Source: Thermoactinospora rubra (GTDB lineage Bacteria > Actinomycetota > Actinomycetes > Streptosporangiales > Streptosporangiaceae). Taken from it: a stretch of DNA of 64,000 nucleotides. Within the stretch, counting starts at the first letter, position 1, and every line of letters begins with the position of its first letter. Below, piece after piece: positions 6,375 through 46,757 of the stretch. Where the stretch lies: contig NZ_MSZZ01000010.1 in the NCBI RefSeq assembly GCF_002093975.1, positions 186,001-250,000 of the forward strand, given 5' to 3'. The notes beneath the pieces were generated by a model, which made no database searches, was not told the DNA's origin, and saw only the letters and a list, made by a program, of their open reading frames with translations. The position numbers were made by a program, and so were the translations under genes.

Positions 6375-6398
6375 GGGTGGCACCCCGGGATGACCGGT

Positions 6399-10735: not shown

Positions 10736-10737
10736 GT

Positions 10738-11562
10738 TCACCCTTTCGTAGCGCCTGCGGTGAGCCCGCTGATCAGCTGCCGCTCGGCGACGGCGTAGAA
10801 GGCCAGGGCCGGGATCAAGGAGATGACCACGTAGGCCAGGATCTTGGCCGTGTCCGAGCTGTACTCCCCCTGGAACTGCTGGACGCCGAGCGGCAGCGTC
10901 CACAGGCCGGGGTCGTTGAAGACCACCAGGGGAAGGAAGAAGTTGTTCCAGCTCGCCACGATCGCCAGCACCGACACCGTGGCGAGCGCCGGTCTGGCCA
11001 TCGGCAGCAGCACCCGCCAGAAGAAGCCGAACGGGCTGCAGCCGTCGATGATCGCGGCCTCTTCCACCTCTCGAGGGATCTCGCGGAAGAACCCGCGCAG
11101 GATGACGATCGTCAAGGGAAGGCCGTAGGCCGCCTGCGGCAGGATCACTCCCAGCGGGTTGTCCAGCAGGCCGTAGTTCCGCAGCAGGATGAACAGCGGC
11201 AGGATCGCCACCGCGAACGGGAACAGCAGCCCGACCGTGAACAGCGTGAACAGCAGCTCCCTGCCGCGAAAGGCGAACCTGGCGAAGGCGAAGGCGGCCA
11301 GCGCCGACAGCGCGACCGTCAGCAGCGTGGTGAGGACCGCGATGACGACGCTGTTCCACAGCTGCCGGTAGAACGAACCGGCGGCCAGGATGTCGGTGTA
11401 GTTCTCCGGCACCCACGGCGCGGGCAGCCCGAACGGGTTGACCGACAGCTGGCCGGTGTCCTTGAACCCGCCCAGCACGGCGTACGCCAGGGGCAGGACG
11501 ACGAAGATCCCGGCGATCCAGATGAGCACGTGGGTCGGGACGGTGCGGAGCCTGCGGATCAT
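10738..11562 (-). CDS. ABC sugar importer permease, MalG type (CUT1)
   Basis: A 274-residue inner-membrane permease with about six transmembrane helices and the EAA loop (EVEEAAIIDGCSPFGFFWRVLLPMARP region) that docks the ATPase. It pairs with the MalF-type permease encoded just upstream; the two genes overlap by ATGA, so they are translationally coupled. No ATP-binding subunit is encoded nearby. That is usual for CUT1 systems of actinomycetes, which share an MsiK-type ATPase (established for the group; not seen here). The substrate is inferred as xylo-oligosaccharides from the operon partners. Confidence 0.9.
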   Translation of the reverse strand: MIRRLRTVPTHVLIWIAGIFVVLPLAYAVLGGFKDTGQLSVNPFGLPAPWVPENYTDILAAGSFYRQLWNSVVIAVLTTLLTVALSALAAFAFARFAFRGRELLFTLFTVGLLFPFAVAILPLFILLRNYGLLDNPLGVILPQAAYGLPLTIVILRGFFREIPREVEEAAIIDGCSPFGFFWRVLLPMARPALATVSVLAIVASWNNFFLPLVVFNDPGLWTLPLGVQQFQGEYSSDTAKILAYVVISLIPALAFYAVAERQLISGLTAGATKG

Positions 11563-12539: not shown

Positions 12540-12546
12540 GTCCCGG

Positions 12547-13851
12547 CTACTCCATCTCGGACTTCGCCGTCTCGGTGATGTCCTGGACGACCTCCTGCGG
12601 CGTCTTGGTGCCGTTGATCAGCTCCGCCACGCTGTCGTTGACCTGCTGGCCGACCGCGGGCGGGTAGGCCTGGTCGAGGTAGAGCTGGAAGGCGGTCGCC
12701 TGGGCGACGGTCTGGGCGACCTGCTTGAGCAGCGGGTCGGCCACGGCCTCCTCCTCGCCCTTGTACACCGGCAGCGCGGCGCCGACCTGGACCATCTTCC
12801 GGTGGTTCTCCGGGCCCAGCGCGAACTTCAGGAAGTCGAGCGCCTCCTGCGGGGCGTCCTTGCCGAGGGAGAACCCGCCGCCGCCGCCGAACGCGTCGGT
12901 GGCCGCGCCCTTGCCGCCCTCCACGACCGGGAAGGTGAAGAAGCCGAGGTCGTCGCCGAGCCCCTTCTTGGAGGAGTCCTTCTGGACGCTGGGCGCCCAC
13001 TGGCCCATCAGCTCCATGGCGGCCTTGCCGTTGCCCATGGTGGCCGCCTGGCCGTCGGGCGTGGAGTAGTCGGCGCCCTGGAAGCCCTTCTGGAAGGGCT
13101 GCAGGTCGGCCAGCTCCTTGAGCCGCTGGCTGGCGGCGACGAAGTCGGGGCCGGTGAAGTCGGCGTTGTCCGCGGCCTGCTGGAGCCCCGGCACGCCCGC
13201 GATCCGCATGGCGAGGTAGGACCAGTAGTAGTGGCCCGGCCACTTGGCCTTGCCGGCCAGCGCGATCGGGGTGACGCCGGCCGCCTTGAGCTTCTTCACC
13301 GCGTCGATGAACTCGGTCCACGTGGCGGGCGGCTGCTGGATGCCGGCCTTCTCGAACAGCGCCTTGTTGTACCAGAAGCCCACCATGCCGATGTCGGCGG
13401 GCAGGCCCCAGGTCTTGCCGTCGAACTGATAGGCGGTCAACGCGGCGGTCGTGAGGTTCGGGATCAGGTCGCCCACGTCGGCGGTCAAGTCACGCACCAG
13501 CCCGGCGTCGACGTGCTGCTTGAGCACGCCGCCACCCCAGTGCTGGTAGACGTCGGGGGCCTTGCCCGACTGGACGGTGGTGGCAAGCTTGGGCTTATAG
13601 GAGTCGTTCTCGATGGCGACGTTCTTGATGGTGACGTTGGGGTGCATCTTCTGGTACGCGGCGATCGTGTTCGCCCAGAAGCTCTTGCCCGGTTCGCTCG
13701 TGGCCAGGTTCCAGAACTCGAAGGTCACCTTCTTGGGGCCGGCCGGCGCGCTGGACTGGCCCGCCTGGCCCTGGCCGCCTCCTCCTGTGCCGCAGGCCCC
13801 CAGGAGGAGGGCGGCGGCCGCGAACGCCACGACACTTCGTCGACTCTGCAT
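12547..13851 (-). CDS. Extracellular solute-binding lipoprotein (CUT1 sugar importer)
   Basis: A 434-residue lipoprotein and the substrate receptor of the importer. The lipobox LLLGAC places the lipidated Cys at C20, and a Gly/Ser/Pro-rich tether follows. The mature part has the family 1 solute-binding fold (VTFEFWNLATSEPG, GKAPDVYQHWGG, GMVGFWYNKALFEKAG). It is the first gene of the operon 13851 to 6399 and is probably the most strongly expressed. Two copies of the TTTCGG-type operator lie 26-59 bases upstream, so the divergent LacI regulator should control it. Xylo-oligosaccharide binding is inference from the GH10 and GH30 partners. Confidence 0.92.
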   Translation of the reverse strand: MQSRRSVVAFAAAALLLGACGTGGGGQGQAGQSSAPAGPKKVTFEFWNLATSEPGKSFWANTIAAYQKMHPNVTIKNVAIENDSYKPKLATTVQSGKAPDVYQHWGGGVLKQHVDAGLVRDLTADVGDLIPNLTTAALTAYQFDGKTWGLPADIGMVGFWYNKALFEKAGIQQPPATWTEFIDAVKKLKAAGVTPIALAGKAKWPGHYYWSYLAMRIAGVPGLQQAADNADFTGPDFVAASQRLKELADLQPFQKGFQGADYSTPDGQAATMGNGKAAMELMGQWAPSVQKDSSKKGLGDDLGFFTFPVVEGGKGAATDAFGGGGGFSLGKDAPQEALDFLKFALGPENHRKMVQVGAALPVYKGEEEAVADPLLKQVAQTVAQATAFQLYLDQAYPPAVGQQVNDSVAELINGTKTPQEVVQDITETAKSEME

Positions 13852-27313: not shown

Positions 27314-28402
27314 TCATGTCTGCCCACCCTGGGTCTTCCGCCCGGGGTCTTCCCGCTCCGTGTGTCCTCGTCCTGGGTCTCCTTCCCGCCTCGTGTGCCG
27401 GCCCAGGAAACGGCGGACATCGGCGATCTCGCGGGCGAGGTGGTCCCGGGCGGGGCCGGCCAGCTCGGCGAAGGCGGTGACCGTCACCTCGTCGCCGCGC
27501 CTGGCCCAGGTGCCGCCGATGACGCCGTCGACCAGGACGACGGGGCGCAGGATGCCGCCGCCCGGGAAGACGGCGCGGACGTGCTCGGCGGGCAGGAACG
27601 GCTCGCGGCTCTTCCAGCCGAGCAGGTACTCGTCGAAGGACGGCAGCAGCCGTACGGGCACCTCTGGGGCGTGCCGTCCGCCGGGATCCGCGGGACGACC
27701 CGTGCCTTCTGAATCCGGCGCGGGCCGGGGGGCGGGGGCGGCGCGCCAGGCCGTACGGGCCTGGCCGAGCGGGAGGCCGGACCAGGCGGCGAGGTCCTCC
27801 GGCCCGGCCGGGACATGCGCGCGGCGGTAGCGCACGGCCAGCTCCCGCAGGGCACGGTCCCGATCGGGCTCGAACGCGATCGGCCCGCCCAGCCAGTCGT
27901 CGGCGTGGACGTAGGTGGGCTTGCCGTTCCTCGGCGGGCCGAGCACGGCCAGCCCGCAGGCGGCGGCCAGCGCCACCAGGTGGACCACGCCCTGGCCGCG
28001 CGCCCGGCCGCCGAGCCGTTCCTCCAGCTCGGCCTTGGTCAGCGGGCCCTGGCCGTGGAGGGCCCGCCCGATCAGGGCCGGCAGGTCGTCGCCGGTCACG
28101 CCCTCCTCGGCGAGGCGGCGGAGCGTGCCGGTGCGGCGGGCGGTCAGCGCCAGGAGCCACGGCAGGTCGTCGCGGTGGACGTAGTGGAGGGTGCCGCGCG
28201 GCCCCCACGTGCGGACGATCTCCCGGGCCTGGACCGCCGCCTCGACGTCGCCCAGGGTGACGGTCGCGGAGCGGGCGCGGAAGGCCAGCGGGGCGGCGGC
28301 GAGGTCCTGGGCCTGGACGGCCAGCAGGTGGCGGACGATCCCACCGGCGCCCGTCCCCGGCGGCCGGTGCAGGAGCTGGGCGGCCATCCGTGCCTGGTTC
28401 AT
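27314..28402 (-). CDS. HTH_42/AlkZ-like DNA glycosylase
   Basis: A 362-residue winged-helix protein of the HTH_42 superfamily, whose characterised members (AlkZ, YcaQ/AlkX) excise alkylated bases or unhook DNA crosslinks. The catalytic QxQ motif is present as Q30-A-Q32 in LAVQAQDL, as in the AlkZ-like branch. The conserved WGPRGTLHYVHRDDLPW block and a C-terminal LLPSFDEYLLGWK segment support the assignment. The C-terminal 30 residues are low-complexity. It starts 4 bases after the stop of the transglutaminase-like gene without a clear ribosome binding site, so coupling is likely. The damage substrate is unknown; the adjacent exporter could suggest self-resistance to a DNA-damaging compound. 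Confidence 0.8.
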   Translation of the reverse strand: MNQARMAAQLLHRPPGTGAGGIVRHLLAVQAQDLAAAPLAFRARSATVTLGDVEAAVQAREIVRTWGPRGTLHYVHRDDLPWLLALTARRTGTLRRLAEEGVTGDDLPALIGRALHGQGPLTKAELEERLGGRARGQGVVHLVALAAACGLAVLGPPRNGKPTYVHADDWLGGPIAFEPDRDRALRELAVRYRRAHVPAGPEDLAAWSGLPLGQARTAWRAAPAPRPAPDSEGTGRPADPGGRHAPEVPVRLLPSFDEYLLGWKSREPFLPAEHVRAVFPGGGILRPVVLVDGVIGGTWARRGDEVTVTAFAELAGPARDHLAREIADVRRFLGRHTRREGDPGRGHTEREDPGRKTQGGQT

Positions 28403-33659: not shown

Positions 33660-34862
33660 GTGTCTGAGGAGCCGCTCACCCTCGACGCCGCCCTGTCCGA
33701 CGAGGCGGTCCTGTCGACCTACCGCAGGATGTTCGCCGCTCTGGCGCGTGACAGCGGCGCGGTCGTCGACGACCCGGTGCTGGTCGACATCGCCGAGACG
33801 CTGTTCACGGCGTTCGCCGAGGCGGGCGAGGAGTGGCTGACGCACGAGCAGATGCGCCACGCCTGCCGGGCCTATCCCACCGACCTGTTCGAGAACAGGC
33901 TGCGCGTGCTCAAGGGCCTGGGCGCCATCCGTGAGGTGTTCCCCAAGCCCAACCAGCTGCGCTACCGGGCCTCCTTCACCAGCGTCGTGGGGCTGATGTT
34001 CATCCGGCGGATGATGGACGACGGCGGGCAGTCGGAGATGCACCGGCTGCTGGCGCTCGAAGACCTCAACGTGGCCGATCCCCGCACCACCATGGAGGAG
34101 GCGCGCCAGTCGGCGGTCAACCTGGCCAGGGCGTTCCGGCTGTGGGCGCTGGAGCTCATCACGCTGACCACCGGCACCATCGAGGAGCTGCGCGAGCAGG
34201 CGCCCAAGCTGTGGGGCACCGAGGAGATCGCCCGGCGCGCCCAGGGGCTGCACGCCACGATCCTCACCCGCTGGCCCTCGCTCGACCGGGTGTGCACCGA
34301 CCTGCGGGCGGCGATCTACGCCTACAGCGACGCCTCGCGCCGCGCCGCCGGGCGGCTGGCCGAGTCGGCGGGCACCACACGCAACCTCACGCTGCTGCCC
34401 ACCGAGACCTGGCGCACCTTCGCCCAGACCGCCTCGCGCGAGACGCTCGCCTCGGTCCTCGACGGCTTCCTGTTCGACGCGCCCGCGCCGTGGCACGATC
34501 CGGCCGCCATCGCGCGGGCCGTCGACGAGGCCCCGCGCCCGGCCCCCGCCCAGCCGACGCCGCCCCGCTCGGCACTGCCCGACCCCGGGCCCTCCAGCGT
34601 GCTCGCCGAGCCGCCCGAGGCCGCCGTCCAGCGGCTGCGTGAGGTGGCCGAGTCGGTGCTCGGCGGGGCGGACCGGGTGGCGCTGGCCGACGCCTTCGGC
34701 GGCGACTGGCCCGCCGCGCGCCGCCTGCTGGCCGACCTGACGACCATCGACCTGCGTCCGGACCTGCCGTATCGGCTGGTGTGGAGCGAGGAGCTGTCGA
34801 TCGATCCGGAGCGGGAGCCGGCGTGGCTGTCGCACGGGTTCCTGGTGCGGGAGTGTTCGTGA
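33660..34862 (+). CDS. Winged-helix/kleisin-like partner of the SMC-like ATPase
   Basis: A 400-residue soluble protein that I do not recognise by name. The N-terminal third looks like a winged-helix domain (EWLTHEQMRHACRAY, then a recognition-helix-like segment LFENRLRVLKGLGAIREV and a strand). A helical middle follows (ARAFRLWALELITLTTG, IEELREQAPKLWG, LDRVCTDLRAAIYAY), then a Pro-rich linker (about 290-320) and a C-terminal wing-like domain ending in LVREC. This order resembles a MukF/JetA-type kleisin. That is inference from layout and from the SMC-like gene two positions downstream. The GTG start is leaderless-like. The stop overlaps the next GTG (GTGA). Confidence 0.6.
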   Translation: MSEEPLTLDAALSDEAVLSTYRRMFAALARDSGAVVDDPVLVDIAETLFTAFAEAGEEWLTHEQMRHACRAYPTDLFENRLRVLKGLGAIREVFPKPNQLRYRASFTSVVGLMFIRRMMDDGGQSEMHRLLALEDLNVADPRTTMEEARQSAVNLARAFRLWALELITLTTGTIEELREQAPKLWGTEEIARRAQGLHATILTRWPSLDRVCTDLRAAIYAYSDASRRAAGRLAESAGTTRNLTLLPTETWRTFAQTASRETLASVLDGFLFDAPAPWHDPAAIARAVDEAPRPAPAQPTPPRSALPDPGPSSVLAEPPEAAVQRLREVAESVLGGADRVALADAFGGDWPAARRLLADLTTIDLRPDLPYRLVWSEELSIDPEREPAWLSHGFLVRECS

Positions 34863-36097
34863 AGGCCGGCGGTACTGCTGCCGCGGGAAGAGCTGTGGGC
34901 GCCGGTGACGCGGCCGTCGCGCACGCGCGGGTCCGGGCGCACGGGCCGTTGCGCCTGCCCGCCGGTGCGCCGGCGCCCGAGGGGATGGCGCGGCTGACCT
35001 TCCCCGACTCCACCGGGCTCGCGCTGGGCGTCTGGCCCGACGGGGCGACGCCCGCGCTGCTGGAGGAGCACCAGGTGCCGCCCGTTCCCGTCGAGCGGGC
35101 CGGGGAGACCCGGCGGGTGCTCGCGGCGTGCCTGAAGTGCTGCTGGACCGACCTGTCGGCGGACCCGTGGCCGGGCTCGCCGGCGCCGCTGGAGCGCGTG
35201 CTCGGCACCTACCGGGCGTTGATCGGGCGCACCGACGACCTGATGCGCAACTGGGCGATCGGCGCGCTGCGGCGGTTGCACGACTCGGCGTGGATCGTGC
35301 TGTCCGACGGGCTGGTGCGCCTCGGGCCGCGCTGCGCCCTGTGGCCGGTCTCCGCGCACGCGCAGCTGAAGGAGCTCGTCCGCCGCCTGCCGGAGCCCGC
35401 CGGTGACGACCTGACCGTGGTGGCGGACTCCGACCTCGTCGAGACCGCCCCGGATCCCGCGGGCGGGCGCGTCGAGGGCGGCGAGTCGGCGGGCCTGGAG
35501 GACCTGCTGGAGGGCTACGACGAGCGCCACCGGGCCGAGCTGGTGGCCGCCTTCATGGCCGTCGAGCACGCCGCCGAGCCGGTGCCCGAGGCGAGGTTCG
35601 CGGCGTTGCGCGACCCGGCGCTGCGGCGTGCGCTGGCGCAGATGCTCGCGCGCCGCGGCCGGGTCCTCATCCAGCATCGCGAGCGCTGGATCTCCGGCTA
35701 CGACGACGGCGTCGCGGCCCGTCTCGACGGGCCGCTCAGCGAGAGCGAGCGTGCCGTGCTGACGCTCGTGCTGGTCCACTCGGTGGCGATCCCGCGAGCC
35801 GAGGGCGTGCTGCCCGAGGACACCTGGCTGTCGCCGCACCCCACGCCCGTCGAGGAGCTGCGCCGCCACACCCAGGTGCCGATCGGCGAGCTGGAGGCCG
35901 CGCTCAGGTCGCTGCGCCACGCGGGGCTCCTCACGCAGGTCAAGGCCGGCGAGGAGGCGGGCGGCTACGTGCCGGGGCCGCAGTTCCACCGCCTCACGCC
36001 CGCGGCGCGGCGGCGGCTGCAGGAGGAGCTGATCCTCGCCGCCGGGCCGCAGACGCCGCTGGCGGCGGCCGTCCGCGCGAGAAGGGCGGCCGGGTGA
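34859..36097 (+). CDS. Second winged-helix partner of the SMC-like ATPase
   Basis: A 412-residue protein without a recognised named family. The N terminus is low-complexity and Ala-rich. A first alpha/beta segment (about 75-185, LKCCWTDLSADPW to VRRLPEP) may be a winged helix, followed by a helical middle. The C terminus has a clear winged-helix pattern (VEELRRHTQVPIGELEAALRSLRHAGLLTQV, then a wing strand GGYVPGPQFHRLT). Tandem winged helices next to an SMC gene recall the MukE/JetB or kite subunits. GTG 34859 overlaps the upstream stop, and GGGAG is well spaced. The SMC-like gene follows after 78 bases. Confidence 0.6.
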   Translation: MKAGGTAAAGRAVGAGDAAVAHARVRAHGPLRLPAGAPAPEGMARLTFPDSTGLALGVWPDGATPALLEEHQVPPVPVERAGETRRVLAACLKCCWTDLSADPWPGSPAPLERVLGTYRALIGRTDDLMRNWAIGALRRLHDSAWIVLSDGLVRLGPRCALWPVSAHAQLKELVRRLPEPAGDDLTVVADSDLVETAPDPAGGRVEGGESAGLEDLLEGYDERHRAELVAAFMAVEHAAEPVPEARFAALRDPALRRALAQMLARRGRVLIQHRERWISGYDDGVAARLDGPLSESERAVLTLVLVHSVAIPRAEGVLPEDTWLSPHPTPVEELRRHTQVPIGELEAALRSLRHAGLLTQVKAGEEAGGYVPGPQFHRLTPAARRRLQEELILAAGPQTPLAAAVRARRAAG

Positions 36098-36175
36098 GCG
36101 CGGCCAGCGGTCCCGGCCCGGGCGACCGGTGGACGGACGGGCAGCACACGGACGAAGGACGACGGGGGTAGATCG

Positions 36176-39100
36176 GTGTCGCAGATGGAGAACATCGTCG
36201 GGGATCGGGTGCTGATCGCCGTACAGGCGGTCAACATCTCCCGCTTGTCGACCCACGCGGTGCCGATCGTCCCCGGCACGCTCATCGTGGTCGCCGGGGC
36301 GGGACCGAAGGACTCCAACGGCGCCGGCAAGTCGTCGTTCATCGCCGCCATCACCGCGTTGCTGGGCGACGAGCAGTGGCGGTTCGCCTCGGGCGCGAAG
36401 GCCGTGTCCGAGCTGCTGTTCAACGCCGAGCTGGCCAGCGGCTCCGGCGCCCGCCAGTGGGCCAGCGCGAGCCACGGCTACATCGTCGGCGTCTTCGGCC
36501 CGGCCGCGCCCGGCGCACTGGCAAGCACGACAAGCACGACAAGCGCGGCACCCGCGGCGAGCGCCGCCGACGACGAGCCGGAGCCGCACGACGGCGGCGC
36601 GCTGTTCGGCGCCCCGAAGGCCGAGACGGTCACCGTGTGGGTGCGGGTGAACCAGGAGGCGCCGCACCTGGAGATCCGCTGGCGCGAGGGCGTCCACCTG
36701 GCCGCCGCGCCGTCCGAGGCCGAGCGGGTGGCCAGGGCGGACGAGCTGTGGGCGGCGATGCCCAGGTCGGCCGGGCGGCGCGACGTCGTGGCCCGCGACC
36801 TCACCAAGGTCCTGTACGGCGACCGCGTCCGGTGCGTGTCGTTCCTGTCGACGTCGGTGCGCAGCAAGGTGGCGACGAACCTGCTGTCCCAGCCGCTCAA
36901 CGAGATCTCGCCGGAGCGGGTGTTCGAGGCGATCGCCGCGCTCACCGGCCTGGACACCGAGCTGGAGCAGGAGCGGGAGGCCCGCCGCGACGAGCACGCC
37001 AAGCGGGTGCGCGCGGCCGAGGCGGCCGACCGGCTGGCGGAGTTCGAGGCGGAGTCGCGGGCGTTGCTGGCCGCGTTCGACCGGCGCGACCAGGCCAGGG
37101 TACGGCTGGCCGAGGCGTTGCGCTGCTGGCGGGGCAGGCAGACCCGCCGGCTCGCCGACGCGGCGGACCGGGACGAGCAGCTGGCCGCCGAGCTGGAGCG
37201 GCACCGGCTGGCGGGCGAGCAGGCGGCCGAGGCGATCGCCATGACGAAGGCGGAGATCGCCTCGCTCAAGGACGACACGCTCGACCGGCGGCTGGCCGAG
37301 GCCCGCAGGACCCTGACCGAGCTGCAGGCCAGGGCGGCCAAGCTGGAATCGGACCGGGCGGTGGCGGAGAACTCGGCCGACGAGCTGCGCGGCCTGATCC
37401 CCGGCCTGGAGGAGACGCGGCGGCTCGCCGACGGGCGCGACGTGCCGGCCGCCGAGCGCGAGCTGGCCGAGGCCAGGGCGGGCCTGACCGAGGCGCTGAA
37501 GGCGCTGGGCGTGGCCGACCGGGAGGTCGCCTCGGCGCGGGCGGCGCTCGACGACGCCGAGGGTGGGCCGGCGGCGGCGCAGCTCAACGCCCTGGCGGCG
37601 GGCGGCGTCAAGGCGACCGGGCTGCTCGACGCCCTGGACGTGGCCGAGCAGGCGCGCGACCACTCCCGGGAGCCCGGCGATCCCCCGGCTGCGGGCATCG
37701 ACCTGGACGGGCTGCGCGGGTGGCCGACCGAGCACGCCGTGATCGTCGACGCCGCCGACCTCGACGCGGCGGCCGCCGCCCTCGCGGACCTGCCCGGGTC
37801 GGTCCTGGTCAGCGCGGCCGGCGTGAGCGTGGTGGGCGCGTTCGGGGGCGTGGCGACCGGGCGGGAGGCCCGCATCAAGGCCGCCGAGCTGCGCCTGCAT
37901 CGCGCCAGGGACGCGCAGGAGGAGGCGGCGCGAGCCGTACGGCAGGCGGAGGAGTCGGTCGCGGAGGCGCAGCGGCGGCTGGAGGGGGCCAGGGCGGCGG
38001 TCCAGCTGGCCGACGTCGAGCGGAGGCTGGCCGAGCGCCGGAGCAGGCTGGCGGAGCTGACCGAGGCGCTGGAGGAGCTGGCGCCGCAGGTGGCGGCGGC
38101 CGAGCAGGAGGTCGGCGGCCTCGACTTCCGCGCGCGGACACGGAACATGGAGATCGAGCGCCTGGAGGGCCGCCGCCAGCGCCTGGAGGCCGAGCGGGCG
38201 CGGGCGCGCGAGCAGGAGGTGCAGGTCGCCAGGGAGCGGGAGGCGCTGAAGCTGGAGGAGCTGGTCCAAGACTGGGGCGGCTCGGTGGAGGGGGCGCGGG
38301 AGTGGATCGCCGCGCTGCCCGAGGAGGAGCGCGGGCGCACCGCCGAGGAGTGGTGGCGCATCGCCGAACGCCACCTCGACCAGGCCTACCGCGACACGTT
38401 CGGCGAGGACGACGAGGTGCCGGAGGAGCTGCGGTTCCTCATGACCGAGCGGGCCGGGCGCAGCGGCAGGGAACAGGCCACGTTCGCGGCGGTGTGCGCG
38501 TCGCTGGCCTCCTACCTGCGGGGACAGGAGGAGTACGAACGCCACCAGCGGCGGCAGATCGAGACCCAGCTGGCCGGCAGGCAGCGTGACCTGGCGGCGG
38601 CGGCCAAGGGCGCGGAGGAGGCGGCACAGTCCACGGCGGTGCACCGGGCGGCGCTCACCGCGGCGATCAAGGCCAGGCTGACGCGGGTGGCAGAGGAGTT
38701 CGACAAGCTCGACACCTCCTACGGCGGTTACGGCGCGACGCTGGAGTTCCCGGTGCCGCCGGCCCCGGCCGACCCCGAGCAGCGCTGGCAGTGGCGTGTC
38801 ACGCCCAAGTGGCGGCGCGGCGAGGGGCAGGCGTATGTGCCCTACAACCGCAGGGCCAACACCGCGCTCATGGACGAGAAGGCCGTCAAGCTGGTGTGCG
38901 CGGCGGCGATCGCGTCCTCGGGGGGTGGGCACCTGTGCCTGGTGCTCGACGAGCTGGGCCGCAACCTGGGCAAGGAGCACCGGCGGGAGGCGGTGGCGCT
39001 GTTCCGCAGGATCGGCGAGACCTACGGCATCACGGTGATCGGCGCGCTGCAGGACGACATGGAGCCCTACGCGATCGACGCCTGCGGGCAGTACATCAAG

Positions 39101-39235
39101 CTGCGCCGGTCGAGCGACGCCATGCCGTACAACGAGCCGCCGGTGATCGTGGGGCACGACGAGCACGCGGAGCGGGTGAGGATGCTGGCGGCGTACGTGG
39201 ACCGGACCGCGGCCGCCGCCGCCGAGAGCGGGTGA
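36176..39235 (+). CDS. SMC/MukB-like coiled-coil ATPase
   Basis: A 1019-residue ATPase with SMC layout. Walker A is GPKDSNGAGKSS (43-54). A long coiled-coil (about 255-440), a hinge-like globular region (about 455-590), and a second coiled-coil (about 590-830) follow. The C-terminal head has an SSGGG signature-like stretch (914-918) and Walker B LCLVLDE with D925/E926. An Ala/Thr/Asp-rich insert (about 110-140) interrupts the N-terminal head. The relatives I can name are MukB/MksB/JetC. SbcC-type zinc-hook cysteines are absent from the hinge. It is third in the operon. No JetD-like TOPRIM/nuclease gene follows, since citrate synthase lies next on the other strand. GTG 36176 is chosen for the GGGGG ribosome binding site. 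Confidence 0.8.
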   Translation: MSQMENIVGDRVLIAVQAVNISRLSTHAVPIVPGTLIVVAGAGPKDSNGAGKSSFIAAITALLGDEQWRFASGAKAVSELLFNAELASGSGARQWASASHGYIVGVFGPAAPGALASTTSTTSAAPAASAADDEPEPHDGGALFGAPKAETVTVWVRVNQEAPHLEIRWREGVHLAAAPSEAERVARADELWAAMPRSAGRRDVVARDLTKVLYGDRVRCVSFLSTSVRSKVATNLLSQPLNEISPERVFEAIAALTGLDTELEQEREARRDEHAKRVRAAEAADRLAEFEAESRALLAAFDRRDQARVRLAEALRCWRGRQTRRLADAADRDEQLAAELERHRLAGEQAAEAIAMTKAEIASLKDDTLDRRLAEARRTLTELQARAAKLESDRAVAENSADELRGLIPGLEETRRLADGRDVPAAERELAEARAGLTEALKALGVADREVASARAALDDAEGGPAAAQLNALAAGGVKATGLLDALDVAEQARDHSREPGDPPAAGIDLDGLRGWPTEHAVIVDAADLDAAAAALADLPGSVLVSAAGVSVVGAFGGVATGREARIKAAELRLHRARDAQEEAARAVRQAEESVAEAQRRLEGARAAVQLADVERRLAERRSRLAELTEALEELAPQVAAAEQEVGGLDFRARTRNMEIERLEGRRQRLEAERARAREQEVQVAREREALKLEELVQDWGGSVEGAREWIAALPEEERGRTAEEWWRIAERHLDQAYRDTFGEDDEVPEELRFLMTERAGRSGREQATFAAVCASLASYLRGQEEYERHQRRQIETQLAGRQRDLAAAAKGAEEAAQSTAVHRAALTAAIKARLTRVAEEFDKLDTSYGGYGATLEFPVPPAPADPEQRWQWRVTPKWRRGEGQAYVPYNRRANTALMDEKAVKLVCAAAIASSGGGHLCLVLDELGRNLGKEHRREAVALFRRIGETYGITVIGALQDDMEPYAIDACGQYIKLRRSSDAMPYNEPPVIVGHDEHAERVRMLAAYVDRTAAAAAESG

Positions 39236-39287: not shown

Positions 39288-39344
39288 CGTCCGCCGGCGT
39301 CATCCGAAGACGCCGCGAGTTCCCCTGCGCGTCCGCCGGCGTCA
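39288..39344. repeat. Direct repeat at the SMC/citrate synthase junction
   Basis: CGTCCGCCGGCGTCA occurs at 39288-39302 and 39330-39344, 42 bases apart, in the short gap between the convergent genes. The second copy contains the citrate synthase stop codon. Confidence 0.55.
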
Positions 39345-40664
39345 CCCGGGGGCGGTGGGGCGGGGCGGTGGGCCGGTGTAGGAGGCGCGCGGGCGCAGCA
39401 GCGTGCCCTTGGCGTACTCCTCCATCGCGTGCGCCAGCCACCCGGCCGTCCTGGCCACGGCGAAGATCGCCTCTCCCGCGCCGGGCGTCATCCCGCTCAC
39501 CGCGGCCAGGGTGGCGAGGGCGAAGTCGACGTTCATCGCGGGGAGCCGCCTGCGGGCCATCTCGCGTTGCACGGCCCGCGCCGCGGCGATGCGCCCGTGG
39601 CCGGGGGCGGCCGCCTCCACCAGCTCCATGAGCAGGACGGCACGCCCGTCGCCCTTGCGGTAGACCGTGTGCCCGAATCCGGGGACGCGCTCGCCCCGCC
39701 GTACCCGGTCGGTCACCACGCGGGAGGCCTGCGCGGGGTCGGCGACCTCGGCCAGCAGGCGTTCCGCGGCGTAGGAGGCGCCGCCGTGCAGAGGGCCGCC
39801 GAGGACGCCGAGCCCGGTCAGGACGACCGCGTAGGGATCGGCCTTGGCTGAGGCGGCCACGCGGGCGGCGAGGGTGGAGGCGGCCAGCTCGTGGTCGGCC
39901 AGCAGGACGAGAGCGGCCTGCAGGGCCCTCAGCAACGCCGGGGTGGGCGGATGCGGCGACAGTTTCGGCCAGAGCCGTTCGGCGATGGGCCCGGCGGGAA
40001 GCGGCGCCCCCGGCCGGATGGACAGGCCGTCCCCCGACTGAGCAGGCGACCCGTCCTCCGGCCGGGCGGGTAGGCCATCCTCCGGCCGGGCGGGCGGTAC
40101 GTCCTCTGTGCCCTGCGCGGGCGACTCGCCCACGGGCGGCAGCGCGTCGACGAGGCCCGCGATGAGGCGGCGGCCGGTCGCGGCGGCGGAGACCGGGTCG
40201 AGCTGGTAGCGCAGCGAGTCGGTGGCGCCCAGGACGGTGACGACCACCTGGAGCCGGTCGAGCGGCAGCAGGCCGGCGGGCAGCCCGCGCTGCGCCTCGG
40301 CGGCGGCGCGCAGCGCCTCGGGGTCGCTCTCCCACCGGCCGCCGCCGGAGGCCCCGGTCCCCCACAGCGCCTCGGCCACGCTCTCGAAGTCGCGCGTCCT
40401 GGCCAGCTCCAGCGCGTCGGTCCCCCGGTAGTACGGCCGGTCGGCGCCCAGCGCGGTGACGGCCGACTCGATCACCAGCTCCGGCGGGCGGTGGCGGGGA
40501 CGCCCGCGGCGGGCCAGCCGTTCGACCTCCTCCGCGTCGAACAGGCTGCGCCGCCCGTCCTCGGCGCGCCGCCGCCGCAGCACTCCCCTGCTGACGTACG
40601 CATACAGCGTCGCGGGCTTGACCCCGAGCCGCCGGGCCGCCTCGGAGGCGTCGATCCACTCCAT
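39342..40664 (-). CDS. Citrate synthase with N-terminal helix-turn-helix domain
   Basis: A 440-residue protein. Residues 1-55 are a MerR-like helix-turn-helix (EAARRLGVKPATLYAYVSRGVLRRRR, SLFDAEEVERLA). The rest is a small citrate/2-methylcitrate synthase fold with active-site His in LLADHELAAST and GPLHGGAS, the GFGHTVYRKGD loop and the catalytic Asp in MNVDFALA. A repetitive insertion rich in PARPEDG (about 175-215) interrupts the helical domain. The DNA-binding domain suggests that the enzyme binds a palindrome; an excellent candidate lies 1 base upstream of the start codon. It is divergent from a homocitrate-synthase-like gene. Substrate choice (oxaloacetate with acetyl- or propionyl-CoA) is not decided. 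Confidence 0.87.
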   Translation of the reverse strand: MEWIDASEAARRLGVKPATLYAYVSRGVLRRRRAEDGRRSLFDAEEVERLARRGRPRHRPPELVIESAVTALGADRPYYRGTDALELARTRDFESVAEALWGTGASGGGRWESDPEALRAAAEAQRGLPAGLLPLDRLQVVVTVLGATDSLRYQLDPVSAAATGRRLIAGLVDALPPVGESPAQGTEDVPPARPEDGLPARPEDGSPAQSGDGLSIRPGAPLPAGPIAERLWPKLSPHPPTPALLRALQAALVLLADHELAASTLAARVAASAKADPYAVVLTGLGVLGGPLHGGASYAAERLLAEVADPAQASRVVTDRVRRGERVPGFGHTVYRKGDGRAVLLMELVEAAAPGHGRIAAARAVQREMARRRLPAMNVDFALATLAAVSGMTPGAGEAIFAVARTAGWLAHAMEEYAKGTLLRPRASYTGPPPRPTAPG

Positions 40665-40665
40665 G

Positions 40666-40687
40666 AATGTTGACTATAATCAACATT
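40666..40687. promoter_or_regulatory. 22-bp palindrome with overlapping divergent -10 boxes
   Basis: AATGTTGA and its exact complement TCAACATT flank the 6-base spacer CTATAA. TATAAT reads toward the homocitrate-synthase-like gene, and TATAGT on the other strand reads toward the citrate synthase gene. The site starts 1 base before the citrate synthase ATG. It is strikingly AT-rich for this DNA. A dimeric regulator bound here would shut both promoters. Confidence 0.75.
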
Positions 40688-40720
40688 GATCCATATTGCC
40701 AGAAGTGTCAGGGTGGACTC

Positions 40721-41935
40721 ATGCCACGAGTTCACTTCCTCGACGTGACCAACCGCGACGGCGTGCAGACCGCCAGGACCGGCCTGTCGAAGTTCGGCAA
40801 GACGATGGTCAACTTCTACCTGGGCAGGCTCGGGGTGGCGCAGTCGGAGATCGGCTTCCCGTTCCTGTTCCACGAGGTGCCCTACGTGCGGGCCCAGGTC
40901 GCGCTGGCGGAGGCGGGGGCGTTCGGCGACCTGCGCCTGTCCGGCTGGTGCCGCGGTGTCACCGCCGACGTGGACAAGGCCCTGCCGCTGGGACTGAAGC
41001 ACTACAACCTGTCCATCTCGACGTCCGACTACATGATCCAGAACAAGTTCCGCGGCAGGCTCGACCGCGACGCGATCATCCGCGAGATGACCGCCGCCGT
41101 GCGGGCGGCCAAGTCGGCCGGGGTGGAGACCGTGGGCGTCAACGCCGAGGACGGCTCGCGCACCGACGACGCCTTCCTGCTGGAGTTCGCGCTGGCGGCC
41201 AGGGAGGCGGGCGCCGACCGGGTGCGCTACTGCGACACCATCGGCGGCGACACGCCCGAGCGGATCCGCGAGCGCTTCGCCAAGCTGGCCGCCGCGACCG
41301 GCATGCCGATCGAGACCCACTGCCACAACGACCTGGGCATGGCGGTGGCGAACTCGGTGTCCGGCGCGCTCGGCGACCTGGAGGCCGGTCAGGACGCCTG
41401 GATCAACACGTGCGTCAACGGCATCGGCGAGCGGGCCGGGAACGCCGACCTGCTGTCCACGATCCTGGCCTGCCGGCACGGGTTCGGGCTGGATGTGGAG
41501 ATCGGCGACCCGCTGGACCTGTCCTGGGCGCGCCGCTTCGCGCTGTGGGCGAGCTACGCGCTCGGCCAGCCCCTGCCGTACAACCAGGTCGGCGTGGGAC
41601 GCAACGCCTTCGCCCACGAGTCGGGCATCCACGCCGACGGGGCGCTCAAGGACCACGGCAACTACGAGCTGTTCGACGAGGCGACGCTCGGGCCCTTCCC
41701 CGACGACTGGCACGCGCGGCGGGGCCGGGTGGTGCTGACCGGGGAGTACGGCGGCAAGGCCGGGTTCCGGCACGTCATGGAGGGGCTCGGCGTCGAGGTC
41801 GAGGACGAGGAGCAGGCCTTCAAGCTGGTGCAGCTGTGCAACGCGGCGACGGGACGGCCGCTGACCGACGACGAGCTGCGCCTCATCGCCGCCTACCCCC
41901 GCGAGCTGTCGCTGCTGTTCCCCGGCTACCTCTAA
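40721..41935 (+). CDS. Homocitrate synthase-like DRE-TIM enzyme
   Basis: A 404-residue member of the HMGL/isopropylmalate-homocitrate synthase superfamily. Metal and catalytic motifs are TNRDG near the N terminus, ETHCHNDLGMAVAN (HxH metal ligands), NGIGERAGN, and FAHESGIHADG as in homocitrate and isopropylmalate synthases. It would condense an acyl-CoA with a 2-oxoacid by Claisen chemistry. The partner across the divergent promoter is a citrate synthase, the other main family doing this reaction. GGTGGA precedes ATG 40721; an in-frame upstream ATG inside the palindrome is rejected. The exact 2-oxoacid is unknown. Confidence 0.8.
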   Translation: MPRVHFLDVTNRDGVQTARTGLSKFGKTMVNFYLGRLGVAQSEIGFPFLFHEVPYVRAQVALAEAGAFGDLRLSGWCRGVTADVDKALPLGLKHYNLSISTSDYMIQNKFRGRLDRDAIIREMTAAVRAAKSAGVETVGVNAEDGSRTDDAFLLEFALAAREAGADRVRYCDTIGGDTPERIRERFAKLAAATGMPIETHCHNDLGMAVANSVSGALGDLEAGQDAWINTCVNGIGERAGNADLLSTILACRHGFGLDVEIGDPLDLSWARRFALWASYALGQPLPYNQVGVGRNAFAHESGIHADGALKDHGNYELFDEATLGPFPDDWHARRGRVVLTGEYGGKAGFRHVMEGLGVEVEDEEQAFKLVQLCNAATGRPLTDDELRLIAAYPRELSLLFPGYL

Positions 41936-41980
41936 CCCGGCTACCTCTAACCCGGCTACCTCTGACCCGGCTACCTCTAA
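41921..41980. repeat. Four 15-bp tandem repeats over two stop codons
   Basis: CCCGGCTACCTCTAA is repeated four times (the third copy reads TCTGA). The first copy encodes the last residues PGYL and the stop of the homocitrate-synthase-like gene. The fourth supplies the TAG stop of sbcC on the other strand. Because 15 is a multiple of three, every unit carries a back-up stop codon in frame. Confidence 0.85.
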
Positions 41981-44900
41981 CCCGGCGCGGACACCGACAG
42001 GGTCGAGCCGGTGCGGGTCTTGGTCACCTTCAGCTGGGCCGGGATCCTGGTGCGCAGCTCGCCCACGTGGCTGACGATGCCCACCGCGCGGCCGCCGTCG
42101 CGCAGCCCGTCGAGGATGTCCAGGACGCCGTCGAGCGTGTCCTCGTCCAGGGTGCCGAAGCCCTCGTCGACGAACAGCATGCCGATCTCCGCGCCGCCCG
42201 ACTCGGCGGCGACCACGTCGGCCAGCCCGAGCGCCAGGGCCAGCGAGGTGATGAAGCTCTCGCCGCCCGACAGCGTCGCCGGGTCGCGGTCGACGCCGGT
42301 CCAGCCGTCGGCCACCCGCAGCCCGAGCCCGCCGCCGGAGCGTGCCCGGCTGCCCGCGGTCTTGCGCAGGTCGTGCTGGAGCTGGTAGCGGCCGGCCGAC
42401 ATGTGGTCCAGCCGCTCGTTGGCCGCGTCGACCACCTGCCGGAGCCGCTCGCCCAGCACGTACGACGACAGGCTCATGCTCCACTGGTTGTCGGTGGAGG
42501 TGCCGCCGGCGAGCGAGGCCATGCGTTCGGCCAGGCGGTGCCGTTCGGCGGCCGGACGCCACCGCTCCAGGCACGCGCCGAGCTCGTCGTGGAGCTCGCG
42601 CAGCCGCCGTTCCCGCGCGGCGGCCCTGTCGCGGGCCGACACGAGCGCGGTGTGCTCGCGCTCGGCCTCGGCCAGCGCGGCCTCCAGGGCCTGCAGGTCG
42701 GGGGCGGGCCGGGCCGCCGCGGCGGCGAGCTCGAGGTCGGCCAGCGTGGCGGCGACGGCCGCGTGCCGGGCGTCCAGCTCGCGTAGCAGCTCGGCCTTGG
42801 CCTCGCGTTCGGCCGGCGTCCTGGCCGCCGCCTCGGCGTGGGCGGCGTCGTCGAAGCCCGCCTCCAGCGCCGCCTCCTCCGCCTGCCGTACGGCTTTCGC
42901 GTGCTCCTCGGCCGCCGTGTCCGCCGCCGTCGTGGCCTCGACGGCCTCGCGCAGCAGCTCGGCCTCGTCGCTCAGCCTGGACAGCCGTTCGGCGATCGTG
43001 GGGTCGTCTCCCCGGGCGGCGTCGAGCCTGGCCGTGAGCCGGGCGACGTCGCCGCTCAGCTCCTCCCGCCGGGTACGGCAGGCGGCCAGCCGGGCGGCGA
43101 TCCGCCTGGCCTCCTCCTGAAGGCGGGTGCGCTCGGCGTCCAGGCGCGCGGCCTCGGCCGCCAGGTCAGGCTCGGCCGAGGCGGCCTGCCGCAGCCGGTC
43201 CAGCTCGGCCCGCGCCGCGGCCAGCAGCTCGTCCGGCCCGCCATCCGTACCCCCGGGCAGCGCCTCCAGCAGGCGGGACACCAGGCGGTCGCGCTCGGCC
43301 CCCAGCTGGGACCGGCGGGTGCGGCAGGCGGCCAGCGCCTCGCCGAGCTCGCGCGCCTGCTCGCGGGCCTCCTCCCGGCGCCTGTCCACGCGCTCGGCCT
43401 CGGCCGCCAGCGACGGCTCCAGCGCCGCCGTCGCCTCCAGGGCCGCGAGCTCCTCCTCGGCGGTCCGCAGCGCCGCCTCCGCCGAGGCCACGTCGAGCCC
43501 GCCCGCCGCCGCCTCGGCGTCCGTCAGCCGCGACTCCAGGGTGGCGGCCAGCCGTTCGGCCGCCTCGCGTTCGGCGAGCGCCGCCTCGTGCGCCGCCTCG
43601 GCGGCCCTCTCGTCGTCGGCGGAGGGCGCGGCGGGCGCCGGGGTGGCCGGTCTGGGGTGCTCGGCCGAGCCGCAGACCGGGCAGGGGGCGCCGTCGGCCA
43701 GCTCCCGCGCCAGCTCGGCGGCCATGCCCTCCAGCCGCGCCTGGCGGATGTCCAGCCAGCGTTCGCGGGAGGCCTGGGCGCGGTCGACGAGCGTCCGCAG
43801 GTCGGCGGTGGCCGCCGCGAGCTCGGCGGCCAGCGTGTCGCGGCGCCGGGCGGCCTCGAGCACGGCCTGCGCCGAGGAGCGGGCGGCGGCCGCGGCGGGC
43901 ACGGCGGCCGCGCGGGCGCGCACTTCGGCCAGCCGCCCGGTCACCTCGGCGAGCTGCGCGGGGAGATCGGCTTCGAGCGTCGCGACCTCGGCCTCCCGCT
44001 CGGCGAGCCGGTCGAGGTCCCGGTCCAGGGCCGCCAGCTCGGCCTCCACGCCGGCGAGGTCCTCGGCCATGGCGACGACCGCTTCGGCGGCCGGGACGCG
44101 GGCGGCGGCCAGCCGTACCGCCGCCAGCTCCCGCTCGGCCTCCTCCAGCGCGGACGGCAGCTCGGCCAGCCGGGCGTCCACCTCTTCCCCGGCGGCGGCC
44201 AGCTCGGCGAGCTCCTCCTCCACGCGGGCCAGGTCACGGCGCACGACCGACTGCCTGGCCTCCTCGGTGAGCAGCTCCGACAGCCGGGCGATCTCGCCGC
44301 GCCGGTCGCGCTCCAGCCGTGCGAGGCAGGCGGCGTCCGGGACGGCTCCGCCCGCCCGCCGGGCCTGCCCTTCAGGATCTGAGGGGAGGCCGGCGAACAG
44401 CGGCCGGGCCCGCGCGATCGCGTCGGCGGCCAGCGCCCGCGTCTTGGCCGCCGCCTCGGCCCGGTGCCGCGCGCCCGCCACCAGCGGCAGCACCCGGTCC
44501 GCCCGGGCCGCCTCGTCCAGGATCGCCACGAGCTCGGCCCGCTCCTCCGCGCGCTCGTCGAGGGTACGGCGGAGCGTCAACGCCTCGGCATGGCGGCGCT
44601 GGAGCTCGGCCAGCGCCGCCCCGCGGTCGAAGGCCGCACGCGCCTCCCGCAGCGCGGCCGCCGCGGACTCGCACTGCTCGCCCGACCGCTCCGCCACCGC
44701 CCCGGCCGCGTCGAGCAGCGCCCCCGACCACGCGGGAAGCGCCTCGTCCTCGGGCGGGGGCACGGCCGCCACCAGCTCCTCCCCCGCCGCCTCCGCGACC
44801 CTCTGCACGGCGAAGTCGACCTGCCGGCGCAGCTCTTGCTGGGCCCGCCACGCCTGCTTGCGATGCTCCGCGAGCCACGCCTCCGCCTGGGTGAAGACCT

Positions 44901-45447
44901 TGACGGTGAACAGCCGCTCCAGCAGCTTGCGCCGTTCCTCCCCGTCGGCGCGCAGGAACCGGGCGAAGTCGCCCTGCGGCAGCATGGCCACCTGGCAGAA
45001 CTGGTCGGCGTTCATCCCGAGCAGCCCGCCGATCAGGTCGCCCGCCTCGTCGATCCGCGTGGTGAGCCCCTTCCAGGTGGAGCCTGCCAGCTCCGACAGC
45101 ACGACCTTGGCCTTCTCCTCGGTGAAGCCGCTGCCGCGGAGCTTGGGCCGCTGCCAGGCGGGCGAGCGCTCGACGCGCAGCCGCCGGCCCCGGATCGTCA
45201 CCTCCAGCGTCACGGACGGGCCGGCCCCGGCCGGGGCGTGGTCGCAGCGCAGCGAGCGGGCGCTGTTGCGCTGCCCGGGCACCTGCCCGTACAGGGCGAA
45301 GCACAGCGCGTCGAGCACGGTGGTCTTGCCCGCGCCGGTGGGGCCGTGGACGAGGAACAGCCCGGCCTCGGCCAGGGCGTCGAAGTCGACCCGCTCGGTG
45401 CCGGGGAAGGAGCCGAAGGCGGTCAGCGTCAGCAGGTGGGGCCGCAT
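41977..45447 (-). CDS. sbcC: Exonuclease subunit SbcC (Rad50-like)
   Basis: A 1156-residue Rad50-type ATPase of the SbcCD complex, which opens DNA hairpins and trims protein-blocked ends. Walker A is VHGPTGAGKTTV near the N terminus. Long coiled-coils flank the zinc hook CPVCGSAEHP in the middle. The C-terminal head has the signature TLSGGESF and Walker B MLFVDEGFG. The length is typical for actinobacteria. Its ATG directly abuts the stop of sbcD, so the two are translated together. Confidence 0.95.
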   Translation of the reverse strand: MRPHLLTLTAFGSFPGTERVDFDALAEAGLFLVHGPTGAGKTTVLDALCFALYGQVPGQRNSARSLRCDHAPAGAGPSVTLEVTIRGRRLRVERSPAWQRPKLRGSGFTEEKAKVVLSELAGSTWKGLTTRIDEAGDLIGGLLGMNADQFCQVAMLPQGDFARFLRADGEERRKLLERLFTVKVFTQAEAWLAEHRKQAWRAQQELRRQVDFAVQRVAEAAGEELVAAVPPPEDEALPAWSGALLDAAGAVAERSGEQCESAAAALREARAAFDRGAALAELQRRHAEALTLRRTLDERAEERAELVAILDEAARADRVLPLVAGARHRAEAAAKTRALAADAIARARPLFAGLPSDPEGQARRAGGAVPDAACLARLERDRRGEIARLSELLTEEARQSVVRRDLARVEEELAELAAAGEEVDARLAELPSALEEAERELAAVRLAAARVPAAEAVVAMAEDLAGVEAELAALDRDLDRLAEREAEVATLEADLPAQLAEVTGRLAEVRARAAAVPAAAAARSSAQAVLEAARRRDTLAAELAAATADLRTLVDRAQASRERWLDIRQARLEGMAAELARELADGAPCPVCGSAEHPRPATPAPAAPSADDERAAEAAHEAALAEREAAERLAATLESRLTDAEAAAGGLDVASAEAALRTAEEELAALEATAALEPSLAAEAERVDRRREEAREQARELGEALAACRTRRSQLGAERDRLVSRLLEALPGGTDGGPDELLAAARAELDRLRQAASAEPDLAAEAARLDAERTRLQEEARRIAARLAACRTRREELSGDVARLTARLDAARGDDPTIAERLSRLSDEAELLREAVEATTAADTAAEEHAKAVRQAEEAALEAGFDDAAHAEAAARTPAEREAKAELLRELDARHAAVAATLADLELAAAAARPAPDLQALEAALAEAEREHTALVSARDRAAARERRLRELHDELGACLERWRPAAERHRLAERMASLAGGTSTDNQWSMSLSSYVLGERLRQVVDAANERLDHMSAGRYQLQHDLRKTAGSRARSGGGLGLRVADGWTGVDRDPATLSGGESFITSLALALGLADVVAAESGGAEIGMLFVDEGFGTLDEDTLDGVLDILDGLRDGGRAVGIVSHVGELRTRIPAQLKVTKTRTGSTLSVSAPG

Positions 45448-46569
45448 CTAGGCGGTGGCCTCCTTCAGCCTGGCGGCCTCGACGGCCTCGCGCAGCAGCG
45501 CCTCCTCCTCCGCCGAGGCGGGCTCGCCGCGCACCTCGCGCACGAAGTCGAGGGCGACCTCCGCCTCCGGCCGCCCCGCGAGCCGGGGACGGGAGGCCGC
45601 GGCGGGCCCGCCCGAGGGCTCGAAGGACAGCGCGAGCGTGTGGGGGAAGCGGGCGCGCAGCCGGTCCATGGCCGCCTTGGGGCGGACGGGGTCGGTGAGC
45701 ACGACCTGGAGCCAGTGGTCGCGGTAGGTCTCGTACCGGGGCGAGGTCAGCAGCTCCTCCAGCGTGCCGCGCAGCCGCCCGATCGGCCGCGGGACCGGGG
45801 CGGGCACGAACTCCGCCGAGTGGAGGCCCTTGGCGTCCAGCGTCACCAGCCATGAGCCCTTGACGTGGCCGGTCTCGGAGAAGGAGTACGCCAGCGGCGA
45901 GCCGGAGTAGCGCACGGTCTCGCTCATCCGCTGGCGGCCGTGCAGGTGCCCCAGAGCCACGTAGGTGACGCCGTCGAAGGTCGACAGGGGCACGTGGGCC
46001 ACGCCGCCCACGCTGATGTCGCGCTCGCTGTCGCTGGCCTCGCCGCCGGTGACGAAGGCGTGGGCGAGCACGACCGAGCGGCTGTGCCGTACGGCGTCGG
46101 CGCGGACGCGGTCCATCGCGTGGCCGAGGGCGGCGGCGTGGCTGCGCGAGTCGAGCTCCCACGGGCCGCGCACCAGCTCGGGCTCAAGATAGGGGATGCC
46201 GTAGAAGGCGACGTCGTCGATGACCACCGGCTCCCAGGCGAGGGCGGGGTCGGTGCGCAGGTGGACCCCGGCGGCGTCGATCAGCGAGGCGCCGAAGCCG
46301 AGCCGCCGCGCCGAGTCGTGGTTGCCGCTGATGATCACGACCCGCACGCGCGCCGAGACCAGCCGCATGAGCGCCTCGTTGCACAGCGCGACGGCGTCGA
46401 CGGGCGGCAGCGCCCGGTCGTAGACGTCGCCGCACACGGCCACCACGTCGACCCGCTCGGCGCGGACCGTCTCGACCAGGTGATCGACGAAGGCGGCCTG
46501 GCCCTCCAGCAGGCTCTCGCGGTGGAAGGACCGCCCCAGATGCCAGTCGGAGGTGTGCAGGACGCGCAT
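45448..46569 (-). CDS. sbcD: Exonuclease subunit SbcD (Mre11-like)
   Basis: A 373-residue calcineurin-like phosphoesterase that forms the nuclease core of SbcCD. Metal motifs in order: HTSDWHLGR (D/H), CGDVYDR (GDxxDR), GNHDSARR (GNHD), His in VLAHAF and GHLHGRQ. The C-terminal helices that dock SbcC are present. The start is placed at ATG 46569 (MRVLHTSDWHLG), the family-typical N terminus; a slightly longer frame from 46587 is less likely. The 188 bases upstream, shared with the divergent hydrolase gene, show no clear site. Confidence 0.95.
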   Translation of the reverse strand: MRVLHTSDWHLGRSFHRESLLEGQAAFVDHLVETVRAERVDVVAVCGDVYDRALPPVDAVALCNEALMRLVSARVRVVIISGNHDSARRLGFGASLIDAAGVHLRTDPALAWEPVVIDDVAFYGIPYLEPELVRGPWELDSRSHAAALGHAMDRVRADAVRHSRSVVLAHAFVTGGEASDSERDISVGGVAHVPLSTFDGVTYVALGHLHGRQRMSETVRYSGSPLAYSFSETGHVKGSWLVTLDAKGLHSAEFVPAPVPRPIGRLRGTLEELLTSPRYETYRDHWLQVVLTDPVRPKAAMDRLRARFPHTLALSFEPSGGPAAASRPRLAGRPEAEVALDFVREVRGEPASAEEEALLREAVEAARLKEATA

Positions 46570-46757
46570 GTCCCAGCAAGCTAACACGTCTCACGGGCAA
46601 ATGCCGCCCCACTGCCCCAGCCCGCATGAACGAGTATGGAGAGCGAACATGGAGACATGGACGCCGCCGTCCGGCAGGCGAAACGCCGTCCCGGCAGGGC
46701 GCGCGGCGGGAGTAGCCTGAAGATCGGCGGGCGATCCTACGCACTTGGGGGAGGCCG

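Follow-up and report, generated by a model that had tools for sequence, protein, structure and literature searches.

A JetD-less SMC-kleisin-KITE gene trio of Thermoactinospora rubra, outside the curated Wadjet and MukBEF models, and its JetD-bearing relatives

Three co-directional genes on the + strand form a compact cluster in the 64,000-nucleotide stretch of Thermoactinospora rubra DNA analyzed here (the window, on contig 5 of the 8.2 Mb genome, whose protein matches here are Nonomuraea-like). They encode a kleisin-like protein (protein 1), a KITE-like protein (protein 2) and an SMC-type ATPase (protein 3). By these components the trio is an SMC-kleisin-KITE complex outside the curated models of Wadjet types I-III and MukBEF, since none of the three proteins exceeds a curated cut-off in the Pfam and NCBIfam scans, though the predicted folds are MukF- and KITE-like and the ATPase is related to JetC. 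A gene for the nuclease JetD adjoins divergent operons of this kind and is absent beside the trios of the window's clade; this comparative point is new. We consider it fairly likely that the trio is a chromosomal loop extruder, related to a Wadjet-like system and probably derived from it by loss of the nuclease.

Each of the three proteins has numerous homologues (575, 119 and 286 with E ≤ 0.001, out of 7992, 7998 and 7988 scored candidates), and thus these are real genes. The GTG start residue of gene 1 is the same in close relatives. Gene 2 most likely starts with the GTG at 34859, in a 4-base overlap with the stop of gene 1 (the database copy of protein 2 has a later start and 400 amino acids), and 78 bases separate genes 2 and 3. 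The sequence-only reading, made earlier from this DNA, had proposed three open reading frames (ORFs) without JetD and with the subunit logic of MukBEF or JetABC. The ORFs were recovered at the same place and strand, two JetD profiles find no JetD in the window at E ≤ 1, and both the fold comparison and the homology to operons with JetD uphold the subunit logic. No PADLOC Jet model matches the trio proteins; as a control, PADLOC does detect JetA2, JetB2 and JetC2 in the locus L125 described below.

The ATPase carries a Walker A motif near its start and a Walker B motif (LCLVLDE) about 870 residues later, with an SMC-type coiled coil in between, as had been proposed (NCBIfam SMC_prok_B, 38.4 bits, best stretch 526-838; cut-off 567.35 bits). 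Its other matches in the Pfam, NCBIfam and PADLOC scans are sub-threshold coiled-coil and P-loop matches only. The comparison with type II JetC (a profile of five sequences) yields an hhalign probability of 91.7 and E 7.9e-7, and judged by sequence the ATPase is a remote JetC relative. The window ATPase has no PADLOC JetC match; the sister ATPase of the JetD-bearing locus L092 matches PADLOC JetC2 at 3.1e-5, within the coiled coil. A PDB sequence search with the ATPase gave one coiled-coil match and was otherwise unproductive. Most named relatives in public databases are called "chromosome partitioning protein ParA", a name without support from the scans made here. The hinge of the sequence-only reading corresponds to a conserved block between the coiled-coil arms, a putative hinge read from the alignment alone (Wadjet-II, Wadjet-III and MukBEF are described without a hinge channel in passages of PMC12647877). 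The Ala/Thr insert noticed in the head is present as well, but it is a variable low-complexity stretch found only in six Nonomuraea rows of the 16 aligned, and thus not a defining feature.

Protein 1 is, with moderate support, a kleisin with the MukF fold: MukF entries are the best PDB matches of its predicted structure (the MukF identity of the chains being inferred). The AlphaFold2 model of protein 2 (predicted local distance difference test score, pLDDT, 80.7; predicted template modelling score, pTM, 0.74) has ScpB, ScpAB, the MukE-MukF complex and Wadjet-II JetB as best Foldseek chains (best E 7.5e-3). According to this model, protein 2 is a KITE subunit with two KITE units on one chain. 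The predicted models support winged helices in both partners, so the expectation of such features was not disappointed, and neither partner is claimed by a Pfam, NCBIfam or PADLOC model, only predicted folds matching, in agreement with the earlier remark that they do not look like named families. PDB sequence searches returned de novo designed repeat proteins and one weak match for the protein 1 profile, and weak winged-helix regulators only for that of protein 2. Some protein 1 relatives bear the UniRef names DUF2397, DUF2398 or TIGR02678; these labels contradict each other, have no model support for the window protein and were rejected.

Beyond what the sequence-only reading contained, two KITE-like genes stand in relatives for protein 2, and JetD-bearing sister operons exist. 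Searches blind to JetD, in which the ATPase was run against 246 genomes of the phylum and protein 1 against 101 of the order, led to four intact divergent operons, three in one genus (g173) of the same family (L089, L090, L091) and one in another family (L092). A JetD-type Toprim gene adjoins all four, and in each of them protein 2 is represented by two genes. Three of the Toprim genes match Pfam JetD_C (E 4.2e-16, 5.8e-17 and 6.4e-18; 59-65 bits, cut-off 22), and the fourth matches DUF2399 (E 7.3e-9; 36 bits, cut-off 23.4). The counts of intact operons leave out the marginal match G306 (E 9e-4, two stops) and G140 (L093), a contig of 5.4 kb on which pieces of protein 1, KITE, ATPase and JetD follow one another and which may represent a broken JetD-bearing operon or an assembly effect.

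The JetD of L090, searched in 150 genomes of the family, gave 17 matches, of which five are strong (E ≤ 4.4e-44). In four of these (L121-L124) the core subunits all lie side by side, but since JetD served to find them, they are biased as a sample; the longest ORFs of JetD and of protein 1 overlap in L123 and L124. For the 12 weak matches, the trio was seen in none of ten wider loci, several of which are short contigs (G357 and G363 were left out). In the fifth strong match, L125 (genome G380, 4272-12951), the new kind of JetD (profile E 2e-78) stands behind a core that PADLOC identifies as type II. The nuclease has apparently been exchanged here between Wadjet types, which indicates that JetD passes from one core to another. 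Among eight JetD proteins, Glu-Asn (330-331) and Asp-x-Asp (378, 380) do not vary, as the sequence of a Toprim domain would lead one to expect. In five JetD-bearing relatives the counterpart of protein 2 is split between two genes; it is fused also in the JetD-bearing L122-L124, and its halves lie in different frames in the JetD-less L094-L096, so the fusion does not track JetD loss.

The JetD-less clade includes Nonomuraea, Streptosporangium, Planomonospora, Planobispora and kin. Neither JetD profile finds a match at E ≤ 1 in the 62 sequences of the clade set (the window, L007-L058, L094-L100, L155 and L156), and JetD is absent from all 48 clade loci whose flanks reach 4 kb or more on each side, the other 14 having shorter flanks. 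Protein 1 matches in 39 of the 101 genomes of the order (35 strong with E < 1e-170, three divergent JetD-type operons and one marginal), and it is single-copy in all six sampled genomes of the window's genus. ATPase matches were obtained in three of the 246 genomes of the phylum, namely its own genome and two of family f48. Wherever the contig allows, the partners accompany the ATPase, adjacent and in order. Of eight genomes with an intact JetD-bearing operon, two (G391 and G412) also hold a JetD-less trio, on another contig and with no JetD beside it (protein 1 identity 81% versus 28% and 27% for the JetD-bearing form); the other six do not. In the protein 1 tree, one branch (Shimodaira-Hasegawa-like approximate likelihood ratio test, SH-aLRT, 100) splits six JetD-bearing rows from 42 others.

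The median ratios of non-synonymous to synonymous substitution rates (dN/dS), calculated against the window with a simple Nei-Gojobori script, are 0.19 for protein 1 (41 loci), 0.27 for protein 2 (42 loci), 0.24 for the ATPase (52 loci) and 0.18 for the adjacent HMGL-like gene (32 loci); by this measure the trio is under purifying selection. ATPase relatives are found on one plasmid record only, a chromosome-sized one of Nonomuraea, and on no viral contig (none of 359 pattern matches in the viral scan is a relative). The JetD-less form looks vertical, single-copy and chromosomal, with which "divergent condensin" fits best among the options raised at the outset; "new SMC family" is also fair, as no curated model claims the trio.

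By analogy with the family, we infer that a dimer of the JetC-like ATPase would form a complex with the MukF-like kleisin and the KITE pair on one chain, and that ATP most likely powers its movement along DNA and the extrusion of loops. No cutting is expected, because no JetD was found with the trio in its clade; the complex should instead work on the host chromosome, either as an aid to repair or as a housekeeping condensin, beside the canonical Smc (a separate gene, 898 bits, on contig 2). Given the lack of JetD and the distribution typical of a housekeeping gene, the most probable role is a chromosomal one, in folding, segregation or repair. Loss of JetD from a Wadjet-like plasmid-restriction operon is the favoured direction, since JetD stands with each intact divergent operon reached without JetD bait and with the three described Wadjet types (JetD1-3 models).

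Several observations weigh against this reading. The ABC signature and the D-loop differ from the SMC consensus in the whole ATPase family, so ATP hydrolysis cannot be presumed; the ANTALMDEKAV-type signature is the same in nine of nine JetD-less rows, and N(G/S/T)A(Q/R) is found in seven of seven JetD-bearing ones. The profile-profile comparison that had been suggested as a check linked the ATPase to JetC, as said, but the profiles of proteins 1 and 2 against type II JetA and JetB gave probabilities of 4.2, 0.1 and 0.8, i.e. no match. The global confidence of the protein 1 model is low (pTM 0.40), and the Foldseek matches of protein 2 all fall short of E 0.001. The VIA lists place single winged helices from unrelated proteins on a level with SMC partners, and therefore the KITE assignment is based on Foldseek and gene order (no JetB or MukE is among the best 50 VIA rows for protein 2, which is no evidence against it). 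The 42 other rows of the tree include metagenomic relatives (P0216-P0239) and cannot be counted as JetD-less throughout, and the tree is unrooted, with no outgroup and with long branches, the program itself warning of long-branch joins. Hence, and with JetD moving between cores, a gain of JetD by the other clade instead of a loss is possible.

If the trio were a defence complex sensing plasmids or phages, with a nuclease supplied in trans, the nuclease could come from the type II Wadjet of this genome or from the nearby SbcCD. The former is encoded on contig 16 (TIGR02680 at 1,198 bits; JetA, JetB and JetC ORFs aligned with named relatives; DUF2399 at 125 bits), and as its JetD, located behind JetABC, is the sole JetD-type gene seen in the genome, it is the only one seen for such service. 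Exchange of JetD between cores, as in L125, and the linkage of sbcCD to the trio agree with this. However, the genome's JetD is of the type II kind, the profile of the relatives' JetD finds none in the window or the clade loci, Pfam JetD_C has no match in the genome, and single-copy distribution under purifying selection is unlike accessory defence, which makes an effector in trans rather unlikely. Restriction without cutting, where the complex would load on extrachromosomal DNA and silence or exclude it, appears a little less likely again. The ancestor may have recognised circular DNA, as the Wadjet-type nuclease of sister operons suggests, and a parallel exists in Smc5/6, described as acting on viral episomes in a passage of PMC10586767; but no plasmid-borne or viral copies were seen, except the one chromosome-sized record, and the single-copy pattern extends over the clade.

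Weak RecF, RecN and SMC matches of the ATPase would suit an enzyme of RecN/SbcC type that stands alone beside unrelated winged-helix genes, or an operon in decay. Yet the partners are kept adjacent and in order wherever the contig allows, contrary to what the sequence-only reading had named as grounds for doubting a complex, their folds are kleisin and KITE, SbcC is a separate gene, the Walker residues are invariant, and dN/dS is about 0.2; both variants were rejected as very improbable. The chromosomal loop extruder, in contrast, can be extended to a wider, more tentative proposal, which we hold somewhat less probable than its contrary: that here, independently of the similar transition proposed for MukBEF/MksBEF, an SMC defence that cut plasmids became a chromosomal machine, the trio belonging to a fourth Wadjet-like type with JetD-bearing and JetD-less clades both alive, sometimes in the same cell, the JetD-less form having settled in an actinobacterial family near sbcCD, whose nuclease may have replaced JetD.

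The neighbourhoods of 12 representative loci, which fall into nine groups, show no conserved fourth subunit (the comparison covers the top 40 rows of shared genes, antisense ORFs over the trio being disregarded). The most widely shared neighbour is sbcC or sbcD (eight of nine groups); generic ABC-transporter ATPases, by paralogy, and in some groups an upstream gene are also shared. Of the 39 clade loci that extend 8 kb or more downstream, 27 have sbcC on that side; it also follows the trio in L097-L099 and lies next to the core trio in G391 and G412. sbcC or sbcD is upstream in L094, L096 (sbcD) and L100, and was not seen in L095. None of eight JetD-bearing loci has sbcCD, though most have a short flank on one side. 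The linkage may reflect common descent, and its change of side hints at more, perhaps a functional link. Between the trio and sbcCD (39342-41935) there is a citrate synthase gene with an N-terminal MerR-type helix-turn-helix, divergently paired with the HMGL/homocitrate-synthase-like gene, inside which ARAGORN places a 98-base antisense tRNA-Ala(CGC) (41022-41119, - strand), probably a false positive. Upstream, TgpA-like transglutaminase and DUF58 genes accompany a gene for an AlkZ-like DNA glycosylase (27314-28402, - strand).

Table. Features of the trio and linked genes (positions in the window)
Feature	Positions	Strand	Description
Protein 1	33660..34862	+	400 amino acids, GTG start; kleisin-like, MukF/JetA position
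N-terminal winged-helix domain of protein 1	33774..33971	+	residues ~39-104; secondary structure of the model
C-terminal winged-helix-like domain of protein 1	34614..34850	+	residues ~319-397, after a low-confidence linker; model secondary structure and pLDDT
Protein 2	34859..36097	+	two-unit KITE-like, MukE/JetB position; start codon uncertain
N-terminal half of protein 2	34901..35386	+	blastp to separate upstream gene: L090 43% over 96, E 2e-16; L092 33% over 135, E 8e-12
C-terminal half of protein 2 (two winged helices)	35522..36091	+	blastp to separate downstream gene: L090 40%, E 1e-26; L092 41%, E 3e-30; model
Protein 3	36176..39235	+	1019 amino acids; SMC/JetC-like coiled-coil ABC ATPase; hhalign to type II JetC, conserved motifs
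Walker A	36293..36334	+	residues 40-53, GPKDSNGAGKSS; Lys52 invariant in 16 sequences
Variable Ala/Thr insert in head	36512..36616	+	lacking in the ten non-Nonomuraea rows of the 16-sequence alignment
Putative hinge block (approximate)	37493..37915	+	residues ~455-570; conserved between coiled-coil arms
ABC signature place	38852..38884	+	ANTALMDEKAV in place of SGG(E/Q); assigned by position before Walker B
Walker B and D-loop	38933..38971	+	residues 920-932, LCLVLDELGRNLG; Asp925 and Glu926 invariant in 16 sequences
sbcC and sbcD	41977..46587	-	Pfam; linked neighbours, membership in the complex not implied

A 2023 review (PMC10586767) distinguishes three Wadjet types with JetA, JetB and JetC as kleisin, KITE and SMC, treats the origin of Wadjet as unresolved and mentions the speculation that MukBEF and MksBEF arose from it. 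The two sister clades of this SMC type, one having the nuclease and one lacking it, meet in at least two genomes and offer a natural experiment for this idea. If our reading is true, Wadjet annotation gains a new type, because the libraries used pick out the JetD of the scanned operons and miss their kleisin and KITE subunits, and these actinobacteria gain a further SMC machine beside Smc and, in this genome, type II Wadjet. Wadjet is reported in 42% of Actinobacteria (PMC10482375), in a main text without Nonomuraea, Streptosporang- or Actinomadura. Among the matches listed, judged by title and start of abstract, no publication on this trio family was found in the open literature, subscription papers and preprints being mostly outside it.

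Simple membership in known systems was rejected, though less firmly for Lamassu, whose LmuB model matches the ATPase at E 0.0013 in short stretches and whose partner models do not match. With Smc-ScpAB the trio shares the SMC-kleisin-KITE principle and ScpB as best fold match of protein 2, but it is no plain Smc paralogue, its ATPase scoring 38 bits against the 567-bit cut-off, with the canonical Smc elsewhere in the genome. The predicted kleisin and KITE folds and the lack of a nuclease resemble MukBEF and MksBEF; however, there is no MukB, MukE or MukF match in the Pfam scan at E ≤ 10, the window ATPase is shorter than MukB (1,486 amino acids), and two KITE units are on one chain. As for MksBEFG (Wadjet type I), where the MksG nuclease is linked by the kleisin MksF according to passages of PMC10123090, JetD_C in three sister operons and the weak similarity of the JetD profile to MksG (E 0.0013) are common features, while the nuclease is absent here and no type I model matches the trio. 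Membership in Wadjet I-III is contradicted by the lack of JetD and of JetA or JetB by sequence model. From type II (JetABCD; TIGR02677/02678/02680/02679) in particular the trio further differs in the ATPase length (about 1,020 residues versus a 1,356-position JetC model), in NTAL where the genome's own JetC-II has SGGE, and in a kleisin and KITE dissimilar by profile. Still, the two have in common the kleisin-KITE-SMC gene order, the JetC homology by profile, a protein 2 of about 400 residues that aligns, weakly, over the whole 384-residue N. vireti JetB (E 0.061, probability 0.57), and, in the relatives, a JetD related by profile to JetD-II and once found with a type II core.

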